Shown here one piece after another: positions 15,896 to 32,733 of a stretch of DNA of 32,733 nt; positions within the stretch are counted from its first letter, which is position 1; every line of letters starts with the position of its first letter. This DNA comes from Candidatus Zixiibacteriota bacterium (lineage in GTDB: Bacteria > Zixibacteria > MSB-5A5 > GN15 > JAAZOE01). Location of the stretch: assembly GCA_030668485.1 (NCBI GenBank), contig DAOUTW010000050.1:1-32733 (forward strand). Direction: 5' to 3'. The position numbers and the translations under genes were made by a program. Under the pieces are notes generated by a model. The model had not been told where the DNA came from. It did no database searches and saw only the letters and a list, made by a program, of their open reading frames with translations.

Positions 15896-16014
15896 GACCG
15901 CAGGGTCACACGTCCCGAAGACGGGCCGCAGGACCCTGCGGAACAGGCAGGAGCCTGGTTTCTGCTGTCGCGCATATGACCTGATTACGGAAAATTAAAA
16001 TGAATTCGTGTATT
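15867..16014. repeat. Long direct repeat, copy 1 (RAYT 3' unit)
   Basis: Copy 1 of a repeat also found at 16592-16738. It covers the last RAYT codons, a REP hairpin, a CAGGC/GCCTG hairpin, CTGTCGCGCATATGACCTGA and a tail that decays after 15996. The copies differ by a few substitutions in the coding tail and one extra base in the hairpin arm, and are otherwise identical through the core. Confidence 0.85.
15898..15941. repeat. REP hairpin A, copy 1
   Basis: Arms CCGCAGGGTC (15898-15907) and GACCCTGCGG (15932-15941) enclose an inner CCCG/CGGG hairpin. It directly follows the RAYT stub stop codon. Confidence 0.8.
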
Positions 16015-16020
16015 CACGTT

Positions 16021-16062
16021 CCGCAGGGTCCTGATCCGCTCTTGCGGATTGTGACCCTGCGG
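16021..16062. repeat. REP hairpin A, copy 2 (upstream of the RAYT gene)
   Basis: The same outer arms, CCGCAGGGTC (16021-16030) and GACCCTGCGG (16053-16062), enclose a different inner hairpin, ATCCGC/GCGGAT (16034-16049) with loop TCTT. It lies 73 bp before the RAYT ATG, so the gene is bracketed by this REP family. Confidence 0.82.
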
Positions 16063-16134
16063 TCTTTTATCACATTCAGGATCAATAAACAATTAGTTAT
16101 TGTCAATATTGTGCCTACTAGTAATATATATATC

Positions 16135-16620
16135 ATGGGGCTGAGATTCAAAAATCAGAAATACGGCCAGTGTTTTTTCGTGACGACGACCTTTCACGAA
16201 TGGACCGAATATGGGGATATCCCCAGTGTATATGAAGCATTGGCTGATTCATGCCGGTATTACAGCCATAAATATGGTGCCAGAATAATCGGATACGTCT
16301 TTATGCCCACTCACCTTCATATGCTTATTTTAATCGATGGAAAACAATTGCCCAATTTCATGCGTGATTTAAAGAAATATGTTGCCCAAAAGGTTATGAA
16401 AGATTTAGGTATAAAGGATGATAAAATCTGGATGGCGGGATATGATCGGCAGGCAGTTTCTACGGAGATGGTATTCCGCACCAAGCTGGACTATATTCAT
16501 AATAATCCCGTTAGGAGCGGATATGTTAAGGGCCCCGAAAAATGGCAGTGGTCAAGTGCCGGGGATTATTTGACAGGTACTTCGGGCATGATTGACATTT
16601 GGAAAGATTGGTTGTTTTAA
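16135..16620 (+). CDS. REP-associated tyrosine transposase (RAYT, Y1 HUH family)
   Basis: A 161-residue single-strand nuclease/transposase of the IS200/IS605-related RAYT group. The HUH motif is H60-L-H62 in FMPTHLHMLI; tyrosine 103 in WMAGYDRQAV fits the catalytic position, and LDYIHNNPVRSG is the usual C-terminal block. RAYTs bind and cut REP hairpins; matching hairpins lie 73 bp upstream and 2 bp downstream. ATG 16135 begins the conserved domain; the frame is open further upstream to 16000 but that part runs through the REP and is unlikely to be coding. It is A+T-richer than neighbouring operons, in keeping with an accessory gene. Confidence 0.9.
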   Translation: MGLRFKNQKYGQCFFVTTTFHEWTEYGDIPSVYEALADSCRYYSHKYGARIIGYVFMPTHLHMLILIDGKQLPNFMRDLKKYVAQKVMKDLGIKDDKIWMAGYDRQAVSTEMVFRTKLDYIHNNPVRSGYVKGPEKWQWSSAGDYLTGTSGMIDIWKDWLF

Positions 16621-19658: not shown

Positions 19659-21227
19659 TTGAGTACCAACGCCAAAAGCCATAATATACTCTGGGTTGAC
19701 GATGAAATCGAGATGCTCGATGCCCATATAACTTTTCTTGAGCAGCGCGGTTTCGGCATCACACCCTGTTCTTCCGGAGACGACGCTATCGCTCTGATCG
19801 GCAAAAACGATTATGACCTGGTGCTGCTCGATGAAATGATGCCGGGCAAAGACGGCCTGCAAACTCTTGTCGAAATCAAGGATATCAAACCATATCTGCC
19901 GGTGGTGATGGTCACCAAATCGGAAGAAGAGTCATTGATGGAGGATGCTATCGGTCAGAAAATTGACGATTATTTGACCAAACCGGTTAATCCATCGCAG
20001 GTTTTGATGATTATTAAGAAGCATGTGCAAAGCAAGAAAATCGTCACCGGCCGGCTGGGGCAGCGGTATATCGCCGATATCAACCGGATGAACATGACAC
20101 TCAACGGACCGGTCGAGTGGACCGACTGGGTCGATGCCTATCGTTCCTTGTGTGAATGGGATCTGGAACTGGATAAGTATCCCGACGAAGGATTGGCCGA
20201 AACGCATCGGGGGACTCACAAAGAATGGAATGGACAGTTTTCTCGTTATTACGAGAACAATTTCGAAAGCTGGGTAAATTCCAAGGACCATCCGCCGCTT
20301 TCGACCGATGTGATCGATCAGTCTGTGATTCCTCGATTGAAAGAGGGCGAACAGGTGGTTTTTATTGTCATCGACTGTATGCGCATGGATCTCTGGATGA
20401 AACTGGAGACGCTGCTTTCGGATCTTTACCATATCGATCACAATTTTTATTTTTCGCTCATCCCCTCGGCGACGCCATTTTCTCGCAATGCTATATTTTC
20501 CGGGATGTTCCCGTATGATTTCGCCAAGTTATATCCCGATGACTGGAAAGCTTATCCCGACGACGAAGTATCACGCAATCGTCGAGAATATGAATTACTG
20601 AAAAAACAACTGGCCGATAAGAAAATCAAAGTTGAAAACGGATCGAAATATATCAAGGTACTCAACGCCAATGAAAGCGAGGGGCTGCCCAAACGAATTG
20701 AGAATTATCTCTCATCGCAACTGGTGGCGCTGGTTCTTAACTTTGTCGACGTTCTGACACACGGTCGGTCGAACAATATGTTGCTCAAAGAAATCGTACC
20801 GGATGAGGCGGCGTTCCGTTCGCTGATGCAGACCTGGTTCGAACATTCCAGTTTGTATGAAACGCTGAAAATGCTGGCGCGAAAGAAAGTCACGGTGGTT
20901 ATAACCTCCGATCATGGTTCAACACTTTGTTCGCGGGGAACCATTGCTCACGGAAAACGGGATACCTCGACCAACCTGCGGTACAAATACGGCGATAATC
21001 TCAATTGCAATCCCAAAGAGGCGCTGCTGATCAAGAATCCGGATCGCTATCGGTTGCCGTCTTTTTCGCTGGCGACTACCTATCTCATCGCCCGCGAGGA
21101 TTTTTATTTCGTTTATCCCAACCGCTACAATGAATACCAGCGGCAATTCCAGAACAGCTTTCAGCATGGCGGAATCACCATGGACGAAATCATTCTTCCG
21201 GTGGCGACCCTGAAGCCTAAGGGATAA
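19659..21227 (+). CDS. porX: PorX-like response regulator with PglZ phosphodiesterase domain
   Basis: A 522-residue two-domain protein. The receiver domain (1-125) has D14/D15, phospho-acceptor D58 in LVLLDEMMPG, T86 and K108. A helical linker follows, then a PglZ/alkaline-phosphatase-fold domain (about 200-520) with D239 in FIVIDCMRMD, predicted nucleophile T272 in SLIPSATPFSRN, D365 and H368 in FVDVLTHGR, and D418-H419 in VITSDHGS. This layout is PorX, reported to be a phosphorylation-controlled enzyme acting on small oligonucleotide signals. The start is TTG 19659 with AAGGA about 8 nt upstream; the nearby ATG at 19651 stops after three codons. The partner is the kinase at 18401. Confidence 0.9.
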   Translation: MSTNAKSHNILWVDDEIEMLDAHITFLEQRGFGITPCSSGDDAIALIGKNDYDLVLLDEMMPGKDGLQTLVEIKDIKPYLPVVMVTKSEEESLMEDAIGQKIDDYLTKPVNPSQVLMIIKKHVQSKKIVTGRLGQRYIADINRMNMTLNGPVEWTDWVDAYRSLCEWDLELDKYPDEGLAETHRGTHKEWNGQFSRYYENNFESWVNSKDHPPLSTDVIDQSVIPRLKEGEQVVFIVIDCMRMDLWMKLETLLSDLYHIDHNFYFSLIPSATPFSRNAIFSGMFPYDFAKLYPDDWKAYPDDEVSRNRREYELLKKQLADKKIKVENGSKYIKVLNANESEGLPKRIENYLSSQLVALVLNFVDVLTHGRSNNMLLKEIVPDEAAFRSLMQTWFEHSSLYETLKMLARKKVTVVITSDHGSTLCSRGTIAHGKRDTSTNLRYKYGDNLNCNPKEALLIKNPDRYRLPSFSLATTYLIAREDFYFVYPNRYNEYQRQFQNSFQHGGITMDEIILPVATLKPKG

Positions 21228-28523: not shown

Positions 28524-29945
28524 ATGAAACAAGATCGTTTAAAAATTCTCGTTATCGACGACGACCCCAAGGTCGCCTGGATCCTGACGGAAGGATTGTC
28601 CGGCAGTTTCGACTTCGTCTCCGCCCGCAATGGCAGTGAGGGGCTACAGATGGTGACGACGGAAAAGCCAAGCCTGGTTTTGCTCGACATCAAAATGCCC
28701 GATATGTCCGGGATCGAAGTCCTAAAAAAGCTTAACAAGATCGACAACCGGCCCGAAATTATCATGCTTTCGGGTCATGACGATACCCATTATGTGGTAG
28801 AGTCGATTCAGAGCGGTGCGGCGGAATTTATAAAAAAGCCATTTGATGTCAAAGAAGTCGAAATTCATATCAACGGTGTTTTGGAAAAGAACCGCCTCAA
28901 ACGTGAAGTCTCTACCCTCAAAACGGAACTGCGTACCAGGTCGCAATACGATTCGTTTATTGGCGACTCTCATAAAATTATGCAGGTCAAGAACTTGGTC
29001 GAGCAGGTCGCTGGTTCGGAATTAACGGTATTGATCCGGGGTGAATCGGGAACCGGTAAGGAAATTGTCGCTCGCATGCTTCATAATATGTCGGGCCGTA
29101 GCGAGGAATCATTCACTAAGGTCAACTGCGCCGCGATACCGCGCGATCTTCTTGAGGCGGAGTTGTTCGGCTATGAAAAGGGTGCCTTCACCGGAGCTCA
29201 CAAGACGAAACCGGGGCGATTTGAGGTGGCCAACAAGGGGACGATGTTCCTTGATGAAATCGGCGATATGCCGATGGAATTGCAATCGAAACTTCTCCAG
29301 GTGCTGGAACAGCAAGAGTTCGTCCGAGTCGGAGGGATCAACACCATTCATGTGGATGTCAGAATAATTTGCGCCACCAACCGCAACCTCGAAGAAGCGA
29401 TAAAGCTGGGCCGGTTCCGTGACGACCTCTTCTATCGTCTTAATGAAATAACCATTTTCCTGCCTCCATTGCGGGATCGTAGCGAGGATGTCACGCTGCT
29501 GGCCGATCATTTTATCGATAAATATAAAAAACTGTATCAGCGGGAAGCTTCTCCGCTGGGCCCGGATGCCATTTCTCAGCTTACGGCAGCGCCCTGGCCG
29601 GGTAATGTCCGTCAGTTGGAGAATCTCATCAAGCAGGTAGTGGTTCGCGGCGAGGAATCTATTATCGCCGATTTGTTGGCCGGTCAGTCGGTATCAACGG
29701 AAAATGTATTGCAACCGGTCGGCGCAACCTCGGTTCAAAATGCGACGGCGACTCCGCCGGTCGAGAAGGACTATTCACTTAAAAAACGGGTGGCTCGGGC
29801 GGTCAGCCGCGAGGAAAAGGGGTTGATCTCCGAGGTTCTTAATCGGACCAACTGGAACCGCCGCAAGGCGGCCGAGATTCTTGCCATCAGCTATCGATCA
29901 TTGCTTTATAAAATCAAAGAATATGGCCTGAACGAGATGAAATAA
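28524..29945 (+). CDS. NtrC-family sigma54-dependent response regulator (PrsR-like)
   Basis: A 473-residue activator. The receiver (1-120) has phospho-acceptor D55 in [10 protein letters not shown] and K104 in EFIKKPFD. The AAA+ domain (about 140-375) has Walker A GESGTGKE (173-180), the sigma54-contacting GAFTGA (220-225), Walker [12 protein letters not shown] and the arginine-finger region [10 protein letters not shown]. The Fis-type helix-turn-helix is at the C-terminus ([20 protein letters not shown]). It should open sigma54 promoters; the only good one seen nearby is at 31070, before the PEP-CTERM gene. By context it resembles PrsR of PEP-CTERM systems. It starts after a 106-bp A+T-rich gap with repeated ATTGCAAAAA, so it may have its own promoter. 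Confidence 0.93.
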
Positions 29946-30311
29946 TTTATATAACTTTATTGGGCATTAAAATACTATAAGTTGATTTGGGTGTGGGAAT
30001 AATTGACACTTTTATGAAGTCTCGGTGATTTCATCATCAAATTACCATCGATTTTAATCAAAAAATAGGGCGTGACGCATCTTTTTGCATATCTGGCTAC
30101 TATTTGAGGATATTATTGACTATTATTGATGTTTATGTATTCCCCATAAGGTCTATTCTATCAAGTGATTAGGCTCTGTGTCGAGAGATGGTCCTTATTA
30201 TTGCGTCTATCATTGGGAATGGTAATTGCTGCATGTTTTATGCTTGAAGTTGATGGTAAAATATAGGATATAATCTCCATGGTTGCCTTTAATGGAAGGA
30301 ATCAATCAGGC
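29946..30311 (+). other. A+T-rich intergenic region with possible promoter
   Basis: No gene or terminator is evident. TTGACA at 30003-30008 lacks a good -10. TATAAT at 30269-30274 would place a start near 30281, leaving a 30-nt leader with GGAAGGA (30294-30300) before ATG 30312; its -35 is weak (TTGAAG, 19 bp away). The region may hold regulatory sites I cannot identify. Confidence 0.4.
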
Positions 30312-30755
30312 ATGGATGCCGATAAAGTAAGCCGATTCCGAGATATCGCATTGATGGAGTTGAAACGGGCCGAGAGATACCGTAATTTTCTGTCGCTGTT
30401 GGTTTTAAACTTGTCAGAATTTCTCTCGACTGCCGGGCGGCGCAAAATCGATTCTCGCGAAGAAGCTGACAAATTTATGGAAAGCCTGGTCGACCGTGTC
30501 AAGGGTGGAGCACGTGAAACCGACTTGATATCCGGATTATACAGTGCCCGTCTGGTAATGTTGCTACCGGAAACCGATCGTAGCGGAGCCGGGGTAGCAG
30601 CCGAAAGATTTCAGGATCTTCTTTCCGAATTCTTGTCAGACTTCCTCGAATCCGATTATCGATTTGATGTTCCGCTGGAAATTACATCATTTCCCGAACA
30701 ATCAGGCAAGAAACATTTTCAAAACAGGCTATCGAATCTGTTCGTCCGCGGATAA
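30312..30755 (+). CDS. Degenerate GGDEF-like domain protein
   Basis: A 147-residue protein shaped like a diguanylate cyclase core. FRDIALMELKRAERYRNFLS then LLVLNLSEF corresponds to the usual LxxARRYxxPLSLLLLDIDxF start, and ARETDLISGLYSARLVMLLP lines up with RxTDLVARLGGDEFAVLLP. The catalytic GGDEF is replaced by LYSARL, so it should not make c-di-GMP; it may bind a ligand or partner. ATG 30312 is chosen because the -10-like TATAAT and GGAAGGA precede it; an ATG at 30279 is possible. It sits between the sigma54 activator and the PEP-CTERM gene, which suggests a role in that circuit. Confidence 0.62.
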   Translation: MDADKVSRFRDIALMELKRAERYRNFLSLLVLNLSEFLSTAGRRKIDSREEADKFMESLVDRVKGGARETDLISGLYSARLVMLLPETDRSGAGVAAERFQDLLSEFLSDFLESDYRFDVPLEITSFPEQSGKKHFQNRLSNLFVRG

Positions 30756-30897
30756 ACCGGCGATTATGCCTGCATCCTAATAAATTCTGTGTCCTGCTCA
30801 AAGGCAGTGATTGAGTAGTCGAGGGTGTGATTTTTGGTTTTGGCGACTACCAATCCCGATCCTGCCCTTTTCAAAGTTAATAATCTATTAATATTTT

Positions 30898-30914
30898 TGT
30901 CCAGTCTGTGAACA
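30898..30914. promoter_or_regulatory. Candidate activator site 1 (TGTCCA-N5-TGAACA)
   Basis: A 17-bp inverted repeat with one mismatch relative to site 2 (TGAACA instead of TGGACA). Its centre is 84 bp from that of site 2, which is eight turns of DNA, so both would face the same side of the helix. It lies about 165 bp upstream of the sigma54 promoter. Confidence 0.5.
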
Positions 30915-30981
30915 TTGGCCCTCTTATTACCTTATTGTCAGGCAAGCTGTTAAGGTCTGATTTACCGATTCATCGTTTAAG

Positions 30982-30998
30982 TGTCCACTCATTGGACA
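30982..30998. promoter_or_regulatory. Candidate activator site 2 (TGTCCA-N5-TGGACA)
   Basis: A perfect 17-bp inverted repeat about 72 bp upstream of the -24 element, at a usual distance for binding of an NtrC-type enhancer protein. The likely ligand is the regulator encoded at 28524. Confidence 0.6.
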
Positions 30999-31069
30999 TG
31001 TGTATTTCCCGGGATTTTATCAACTCTCATAAGTCGTTGATAGACAACATCAATTAAACATCTCAGGTC

Positions 31070-31085
31070 CGGCATGGATGTTGCG
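31070..31085 (+). promoter_or_regulatory. Sigma54 (-24/-12) promoter of the PEP-CTERM gene
   Basis: GGCATG (31071-31076), four bases, then TTGC (31081-31084) fits the TGGCACG-N4-TTGC consensus with the invariant GG and GC 12 bp apart. Of the six -24 bases shown only one (T for C) differs. Transcription would start near 31096, leaving a 35-nt leader with GGGAAG before ATG 31131. Confidence 0.78.
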
Positions 31086-31130
31086 GCATAATGGACGAGA
31101 AATGACAACTTTATAACGGGAAGAATGATC

Positions 31131-31475
31131 ATGAAAAGACAACTTTTAGTCATACTTTCGCTGGCCTGCTTGATATTGACCCCTGCCTTGAGTTTTGCCG
31201 TCGATTTTGAAGAAGCTCAAAATCGTACTTTGGAATCAAGTAATGCCAACGCCTGGGAAATGCTCGATGACGGTAATACTGCAGATCAATCGCAGCCTTT
31301 TGGCGCTTTCGATCCAAACGCGACCGATAAAAACACCGATCCGAGCTATCCGTATGATTCCAACAACACCACCCCGGTAGACAGTGTGCCGCCGCAGGTT
31401 CCTGAACCGGCCACGATGATTCTTCTGGGAATGGGGCTTATCGGCCTCGGCGTCGGTCGCAAATTACGCAAGTAA
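31131..31475 (+). CDS. Short PEP-CTERM sorting-domain protein
   Basis: A secreted protein of 114 residues. Residues 1-23 are a signal peptide (ending in LSFA). The mature part (24-88) is low-complexity, rich in Asp, Asn, Ser, Thr and Pro, with no recognised domain. The C-terminus is a classic PEP-CTERM signal: VPEPATMILLGMGL at 90-103, a short membrane helix, then RKLRK. Such proteins are cleaved and sorted by exosortase and often act with exopolysaccharide in aggregates or biofilm. ATG 31131 has GGGAAG 7 nt upstream; ATG 31125 is too close to it. No exosortase gene is in the window. The gene has its own sigma54 promoter and terminator. Confidence 0.93.
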   Translation: MKRQLLVILSLACLILTPALSFAVDFEEAQNRTLESSNANAWEMLDDGNTADQSQPFGAFDPNATDKNTDPSYPYDSNNTTPVDSVPPQVPEPATMILLGMGLIGLGVGRKLRK

Positions 31476-31576: not shown

Positions 31577-31716
31577 ATATAAACCCACCCCGGACAAGCC
31601 GGAGTGGGCCACCGGCAGGGTGGATCACCGACAAGAACATAAAATCTCATGGGAATTATCTCGATTCGGTGGCCCACCTGAAATTCGCTCCCGGCGGATT
31701 TCAGGTGGGTTTATAT
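31577..31716. repeat. Paired inverted REP elements (BIME-like), family B
   Basis: The unit is bounded by ATATAAACCCACC (31577-31589) and its exact reverse complement (31704-31716). The left REP is a hairpin CCCACCCCGG/CCGGAGTGGG; the right has 12-bp arms CCCACCTGAAAT (31673-31684) and ATTTCAGGTGGG (31698-31709). It lies 9 bp past the stop of the minus-strand RAYT and resembles the tandem repeat upstream of that gene, so it is likely that RAYT's target family. Confidence 0.82.
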
Positions 31717-31725
31717 CGCCTAAAG

Positions 31726-32259
31726 CTACAATTCAACATCGTCTATAAAAACAATAGGATCCCGCTTTCCATGATACCAATTATAACTGGACCATGACCA
31801 GTCGCCGGGATCAGAAACCAATCCGGCCTTAACAGGATTCATATGACAATAATTTATCTTATCACGTACAGCCTTGATGGTTCGACAATTATGATCATAG
31901 CATCGGCGCTGCCAGAAAGCGTAACGAGGCCTGCCATCTCTTACAACCGCCAATCTCGTGAGTCTCCCGGGCTGGGATTTCTTCCAGATGTTGATTATTT
32001 TCCTTCCGGATTGACCCTTCATTGCACCTACTATCGGTCCCAGCAGTATCTCGCTATGTGGATATAATACCAGGTGCACATGATTTGGCATGATTACATA
32101 ACCAAGAACTGATAATCCATACCTTTTCCTCGCCTTTTCCAATTCCGACAGAAGTGTAATAGTAGTAAATTCATCAATCAAAAGACGATGATAATGAAAG
32201 CATGAAAAAGTGACAAAGCGTGCTGTGCCGAGATTATCGAAGTGTTTGAGTTTGGTCAT
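31726..32259 (-). CDS. REP-associated tyrosine transposase (RAYT, second type)
   Basis: A 177-residue Y1 HUH transposase on the minus strand. The HUH motif is H60-V-H62 in VIMPNHVHLVLYP, catalytic tyrosine is probably Y121 in FWQRRCYDHNC, and the end carries INYCHMNPVKAGLV. It belongs to the same superfamily as the gene at 16135 but the sequences are quite different and it is flanked by another REP family: a BIME downstream of its stop and a tandem array upstream of its start. It is probably a separately acquired element; RAYTs are usually single-copy and vertically kept rather than actively mobile. Confidence 0.9.
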   Translation of the reverse strand: MTKLKHFDNLGTARFVTFSCFHYHRLLIDEFTTITLLSELEKARKRYGLSVLGYVIMPNHVHLVLYPHSEILLGPIVGAMKGQSGRKIINIWKKSQPGRLTRLAVVRDGRPRYAFWQRRCYDHNCRTIKAVRDKINYCHMNPVKAGLVSDPGDWSWSSYNWYHGKRDPIVFIDDVEL

Positions 32260-32290
32260 TATTTATTCTCGATGGTGTTATCGTAATTTC

Positions 32291-32584
32291 ATGTAAACCC
32301 ACTCCAGCAAGCTGGGGTGGGCTACCGGCGTGATCATGTAAACCCACCCCGGACAAGCCGGAGTGGGCCACCGGCGATACTCAAAATACTCTATTTTACC
32401 ACCCCCACAATCACATATTTTACTAGAAGCCACAATCATGTAAACCCACTCCAGCAAGCTGGGGTGGGCCACCGGCGTGATCATGTAAACCCACCCCGGA
32501 CAAGCCGGGGGGGGCCACCGGCAATACTCAAAATACTCAATATTACCACCCCCACAATCACATATTTTACTAGAAGCCACAATC
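32291..32584. repeat. 147-bp tandem duplication with REP family B
   Basis: Two copies, 32291-32437 and 32438-32584, run head to tail. Each starts ATGTAAACCCACTCC and contains two REP hairpins (CCACTCCAGC/GCTGGGGTGG type and CCCACCCCGG/CCGG type) and a shared A+T-rich tail with ACCACCCCCACAATCACATA. They differ at only a few bases, so the duplication is recent. The next 8 bases (ATGTAAAC) begin a third copy but break off into the IS481 element. Confidence 0.9.
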
Positions 32585-32585
32585 A

Positions 32586-32733
32586 TGTAAACGGTACAGA
32601 CTCACTACCTTGGTAACAGTTTAGACTCAAGACATGGGTAACAGTTCGTATAACGGCATAGGCCAGGAGGTATTGCTATGCCGTGGAAAGAGACCCGTGT
32701 TATGGATGAGCGATTGAAGTTTTTAGGCGAGTA
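32586..32733 (+). mobile_element. Left end of an IS481-family element (runs off the window)
   Basis: Sequence diverges from the tandem repeat after ATGTAAAC and reads TGTAAACGGTACAGACTC, with TGT at 32586 fitting the TGT ends of IS481 elements. GGTAACAGTT occurs twice (32612-32621 and 32637-32646), likely transposase-binding repeats. The transposase start follows. The right end is outside the window. Confidence 0.65.
32678..32733 (+). CDS. IS481-family transposase, N-terminal fragment
   Basis: Only the first 18 codons are present before the window ends. They read MPWKETRVMDERLKFLGE, matching from memory the highly conserved MPWKE-x3-MDERLxF start of IS481-family DDE transposases, whose N-terminus is a helix-turn-helix. 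AGGAGG lies 7 nt before the ATG. The end of the frame at 32733 is the window edge, not a stop. Confidence 0.85.
   Translation, partial: MPWKETRVMDERLKFLGE

Follow-up and report, generated by a model that had tools for sequence, protein, structure and literature searches.

Organization of the PEP-CTERM locus

The analyzed window is a 32,733-nucleotide stretch (contig C55) of a Candidatus Zixiibacteriota assembly that comprises 4,508,503 bases and is 99.95% complete. Toward its end, a 369-bp intergenic region (30756-31124) holds two palindromes and a σ54 promoter and is followed by a small PEP-CTERM gene. The candidate proximal activator palindrome, TGTCCACTCATTGGACA (30982-30998, centre 30990), has the form TGTCCA-N5-TGGACA with perfect 6-bp arms and a motif score of 17.0 bits, and the candidate distal palindrome, TGTCCAGTCTGTGAACA (30898-30914, centre 30906), carries one mismatch and scores 16.3 bits; neither is assigned to a strand. 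Their centres are separated by 84 bp, and the start of the proximal palindrome lies 88 bp from the -24/-12 promoter, CGGCATGGATGTTGCG (31070-31085, plus strand), which has its GG at 31071-31072 and its GC at 31083-31084 (GG-N10-GC). The promoter with exact GG/GC spacing, the perfect 17-bp inverted repeat and its near copy had been described in an earlier note on this DNA, and all three were recovered at those positions. Between the operator and the promoter lies a sequence, WATCAANNNNTTR (31030-31042, minus strand), that matches the IHF consensus perfectly, which is weak evidence; IHF was rejected as a shared element, its sites being found in 4 of 45 PEP-CTERM upstream regions with 1.8 expected, which is too weak.

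The gene that follows (31125-31475, plus strand), 55 bp from the promoter, encodes a short protein of 116 aa with a C-terminal PEP motif, a hydrophobic stretch and a basic end. It passes the curated cut-offs of both PF07589 (E = 3.9e-8) and TIGR02595, in agreement with its earlier description as a PEP-CTERM protein. Since a GGGAAG ribosome-binding site is located at 31118-31123, seven bases ahead of the ATG at 31131, this second ATG is probably the start, giving a protein of 114 aa.

Upstream of the intergenic region are an NtrC-type response regulator (28524-29945, plus strand), which scores 398 bits against the PrsR model and is thus under its cut-off of 502.6, and a degenerate GGDEF-like protein of 158 aa (30279-30755, plus strand; PF00990, E = 4.5e-4, just under the cut-off). 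The latter gene is preceded by its own σ54 promoter, GGGAATGGTAATTGCT (30215-30230, plus strand). The window also contains two REP-associated tyrosine transposases (16000-16620 and 31726-32259), the second of which is flanked by GTAAACCCACYCC...GGTGGGC-like repeats (about 31580-32590), as well as a PorX-type response regulator with a PglZ domain (19659-21227), which matches the T9SS regulator model with 642 bits.

Candidate operator sites in the genome

The perfect TGTCCA-N5-TGGACA palindrome has two copies in the 4,508,503 bases of the genome. Like the copy in the window, the second one (C108:13115) precedes a PEP-CTERM gene that has a good σ54 promoter. Allowing the literal motif up to one mismatch gives no genome-wide enrichment, as its 9 sites compare with 13 of the reversed control; therefore one position per half-site was relaxed. 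The refined motif TGTNCA-N5-TGNACA is enriched, with 13 sites versus 1 in the control, and 7 of the 13 precede PEP-CTERM genes (on C36, twice on C55, three times on C59, and on C108); the other six have no PEP-CTERM gene downstream. The genome-wide scan proposed in the earlier note was therefore productive with the refined motif, about half of whose sites stand before PEP-CTERM genes, and unproductive with the literal motif at one mismatch. The proposal that the PEP-CTERM gene is σ54-dependent and has a paired operator for an activator is supported by this enrichment and by the presence in the genome of the two genes on which it had been made to depend, rpoN (contig C69) and an exosortase (contig C14); the latter scores over the TIGR02602 cut-off and adjoins an EpsI-type protein.

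An array of six tandem paralogous PEP-CTERM genes is located on C59 (G000:C59:56919-61479; L140). Three of them have a TGTnCA-N5-TGnACA site near -265 and a σ54 promoter near -82, and the other three have no such site.

Distribution of PrsR

A PrsR ortholog is encoded on C59 (26062-27396) and matches TIGR02915 with 532 bits, over the cut-off of 502.6. Directly before it lies the gene of a PrsK-like kinase, whose best match is TIGR02916, although its 282 bits fall slightly short of the cut-off of 300, which counts against a PrsK/PrsR assignment; no match to PrsT (TIGR02917) was found at E 1e-20 among the ten C59 ORFs scanned. Among the 60 genomes searched, PrsR at the curated threshold is present in all seven genomes of the family and in one genome outside it (G043) and is absent from the remaining 52. 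In the phylogenetic tree, PrsR proteins of Zixiibacteriota and Proteobacteria form one clade (100/100), and orthologs of the window regulator form a separate clade (100/100). The PrsR recognition helices TSRTTLYDLI and VSRPTLYDLM are alike, and the helix of the window regulator differs from them.

Putative operators and promoters of PEP-CTERM genes in the family and the order

The PrsR-bearing set consists of 45 PEP-CTERM upstream regions from the seven family genomes and G043, with 500 bp scanned. A de novo palindrome search in these regions returned the same 17-bp palindrome, TGTyCr-N5-yGrACA, with a log-likelihood of 148.6 versus 28 for shuffled sequences. Sites of at least 12 bits precede 26 of the 45 genes, versus 7 of 57 in PrsR-negative genomes and 0.6 per 45 in shuffles. 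A few of the family sites end in TTACA (TGTCCAGTTGCTTTACA in G001 and TGTCCAATTGCCTTACA in G003), and about a third of the family PEP-CTERM genes have no good operator within the 500 bp scanned.

TGTCCA-type sites before PEP-CTERM genes co-occur with PrsR. Sites with no more than one mismatch to TGTCCA-N5-TGGACA were found for 10 of 45 PEP-CTERM genes in PrsR-bearing genomes versus 0 of 57 in genomes below the PrsR cut-off (p = 1.5e-4; 9 of 44 and p = 3.4e-4 after removal of the window gene); both p-values are optimistic, as the family genes share ancestry and are not fully independent. Raw counts of the refined motif are above the control in most of the 60 genomes and do not separate PrsR-bearing from PrsR-negative ones; only the PEP-CTERM upstream regions do so.

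The sites are frequently paired, with 13 pairs at distances of 80-106 bp versus 2.6 expected (maximum 6 in 200 randomisations), and are located roughly 70-130 bp ahead of the -24/-12 promoters. Because ten of the 13 pairs are spaced by 83-91 bp, the 84-bp spacing in the window is typical, whereas exact whole-turn phasing is not general: the suggested eight helical turns fit the window exactly and the orthologous locus (83 bp, see below) almost exactly, but other pairs cluster at 87-91 bp.

Strong σ54 promoters precede 32 of 42 PEP-CTERM genes in the family, versus 1.3% of shuffles, and 33 of 40 in an initial set taken from other parts of the order, versus about 1-2% of shuffles; σ54 control of PEP-CTERM genes in Zixiibacteriota thus seems to be common to the whole order. 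For the PrsR-negative genomes, the de novo search gave a different palindrome, TGYNYA-W5-TRNRCA, which is AT-rich and weaker. Genomes without PrsR at the curated threshold (e.g. L327-L366) keep strong σ54 promoters, and a different palindrome is often found near -180. This difference suggests that another enhancer-binding protein probably operates in the PrsR-negative families. It can be tentatively speculated, at somewhat less than even chances, that σ54 control was kept order-wide while the activator was exchanged, with PrsR and paired TGTCCA-type operators in this family and probably another enhancer-binding protein and TGYNYA-W5-TRNRCA sites elsewhere.

The orthologous locus and related sites

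The gene order of the window, i.e. the regulator, the GGDEF-like gene and a PEP-CTERM gene (112 aa), is conserved in G005, a genome of a different genus. The distal and proximal palindromes in this genome, TGTCCGGTAGATGGACA and TGTCCTCAGTTTGGACA, are 83 bp apart, and the distances from the palindrome to the promoter and from the promoter to the gene start are 89 and 63 bp, compared with 88 and 55 bp in the window. This ortholog was missed by a nucleotide search with the upstream region because the flanking DNA has diverged; among the relatives, the search returned only the own genome and one weak 51-bp match. The latter aligns window positions 31009-31058 with L028:1501-1551, in an f3 genome, at 80% identity, and no PEP-CTERM gene or promoter was seen beside it.

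Outside the family, a σ54-preceded PEP-CTERM gene in G043 has a perfect TGTCCA-N5-TGGACA at -305 and TGTCCACACATTGGACA at -200, both with perfect arms. In two Betaproteobacteria that possess PrsR (694 and 742 bits), yGTCGR-N5-CTTTACA-like sites were found before three σ54-preceded PEP-CTERM genes; in this small sample of three sites, they match the Zixiibacteriota sites in length and in the start of the half-site. A comparison with Propionivibrio, where none of 16 scorable PEP-CTERM genes is preceded by a strong σ54 promoter, was uninformative.

Candidate activators of the PEP-CTERM gene

Orthologs of the regulator at 28524 were identified in 54 of the 60 genomes of the order, and in most relatives they have no adjoining PEP-CTERM gene. 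Its closest named relative, L059 from Candidatus Zixiibacteriota, is 69% identical, and neither a PEP-CTERM gene nor a TGTCCA palindrome was found beside it. Order-wide, the regulator is followed by its conserved partner, the GGDEF-like gene with its own σ54 promoter, whose conservation extends to most of some 40 genomes, and a TGC-N9-GCA palindrome is located upstream of the latter gene in most genomes, being weak in the window itself. This TGC-N9-GCA site is the more likely target of the regulator.

We propose that the intergenic region combines a σ54 promoter with a pair of 17-bp PrsR operators upstream of it, which we consider likely, and that the switch is more likely worked by PrsR encoded elsewhere than by the neighbouring regulator. 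The earlier note had assigned the TGTCCA-N5-TGGACA sites to the latter, and this part of it was not supported: the regulator is under the PrsR cut-off (398 bits versus 502.6) and belongs to a separate clade, the C59 protein scores 532 bits, and genomes that lack such sites nonetheless keep orthologs of the regulator, L059 having neither the gene nor the palindrome beside it. A scheme in which the neighbouring regulator, activated by an upstream kinase, binds both palindromes and drives the PEP-CTERM gene does have some appeal: the regulator is of a suitable class, its gene is a neighbour and shares synteny with the PEP-CTERM gene and paired sites in G005, and in G001, G003 and G004 the first 2 kb or so downstream of that gene contain TGTCCA palindromes. 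We nevertheless regard this scheme as unlikely, given that PEP-CTERM genes are preceded by TGTCCA-type sites in PrsR-bearing genomes alone (10/45 versus 0/57) in spite of the wide distribution of the regulator, that a different palindrome and a σ54 promoter lie downstream of it order-wide, that most relatives lack the adjoining PEP-CTERM gene, and that its recognition helix is unlike that of PrsR. The neighbouring regulator is thus probably not the activator of this gene.

The palindromes might instead belong to an unrelated repressor or activator, with the σ54 promoter alone being part of the PEP-CTERM system. Both the six refined-motif sites of the own genome that are not upstream of PEP-CTERM genes and a palindrome of the same type before a non-σ54 RND/MMPL gene in four relatives speak for an unrelated factor; the 17-bp length, the N5 core, the pairing, the distance to the promoter and the co-occurrence with PrsR rather fit an enhancer-binding protein and make this explanation very unlikely. 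Chance occurrence of both the palindromes and the GG-N10-GC match is less probable still, to the point of being hardly credible: it would agree with the literal motif at up to one mismatch not exceeding its genome-wide control, but the de novo motif and the pairing statistics speak strongly against it, as do the refined-motif enrichment, the promoter frequency, the G043 sites and the spacing-preserving ortholog in G005.

The RND/MMPL-side palindromes of the four relatives (G001-G004; L287, L288, L296 and L326) lie between zinc-finger anti-sigma-like and RND/MMPL genes, about 2.4-3.5 kb from the start of the regulator, and are of the TGTCCA type in G001, G003 and G004 and of the TGTTCA type in G002, the G003 pair being 83 bp apart. 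The RND/MMPL genes have a common TGAATCGTTT...CTAAATGG-like upstream sequence. No σ54 promoter was seen at these palindromes in G001-G004; hence, the motif is not exclusive to PEP-CTERM and σ54 genes, and some weight stays on the neighbouring regulator or an unrelated factor.

Under the preferred assignment to PrsR, the kinase encoded beside prsR on C59 would phosphorylate PrsR, and PrsR dimers would occupy both palindromes. Through looping of the DNA, the assembled AAA+ activator could then reach the σ54-polymerase at the -24/-12 promoter, about 90 bp downstream, and this contact would open the promoter. The PEP-CTERM product would be exported, and its PEP-CTERM tail would be processed by the C14 exosortase. 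The role of PrsR as the binding protein, its phosphorylation, the looping and the sorting are all steps that we infer from sequence comparisons.

Comparison with known regulatory systems

Enhancer sites of the NtrC/AtoC type are palindromes of 17 bp whose short core is not conserved; they lie upstream of σ54 promoters and are often paired. The window sites are alike in length, core and pairing, but the half-site is TGCACC there and TGTCCA/TGTyCr here.

In the literature library searched, no paper on both Zixibacteria and PEP-CTERM was found under those spellings. The predicted regulon, so far reported from Proteobacteria only, would be extended to a deep uncultured phylum, and its operator in Zixiibacteriota is now given as an explicit, testable sequence. 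The locus also illustrates that the nearest regulator is an unsafe guess for the activator. The order offers a natural comparison of σ54 PEP-CTERM genes with and without PrsR for the study of activator change in surface-protein regulons.

In Aquincola tertiaricarbonis, pepA is RpoN-dependent, with a mapped -24/-12 promoter and a predicted enhancer upstream (PMC9850573). Both systems thus share a PEP-CTERM gene, a -24/-12 promoter and an upstream predicted activator site; however, the former is betaproteobacterial, is backed by experimental evidence and has pepA upstream of prsT, whereas the window gene is known from sequence alone.

The closest counterpart was described by Haft et al. 2006 (PMC1569441), where a 17-nt motif 1 ending in TTTACA, sometimes repeated, a spacer (mean 62.8 nt, range 32-92) and a σ54 motif occur in this order before PEP-CTERM genes; the regulon is matched by PrsK, PrsR and PrsT, with PrsR as the predicted binder, and is common to Proteobacteria only among the species discussed there. 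The window likewise has a 17-nt motif and a σ54 motif before a single PEP-CTERM gene, its spacer from the proximal palindrome end (30998) to 31070 is 71 nt and lies within the 32-92 range, and PrsR (TIGR02915), an exosortase of the EpsH family and rpoN are present in its genome. In contrast to the TTTACA end of the proteobacterial motif, the last letters of the window sites are GGACA and GAACA, and the Zixiibacteriota operator is usually GGACA/GAACA-ended, more symmetric and often paired at 83-105 bp. The element is best read as a probable Zixiibacteriota branch of the same PrsR/σ54 PEP-CTERM regulon, outside the Proteobacteria and with an operator of greater symmetry.
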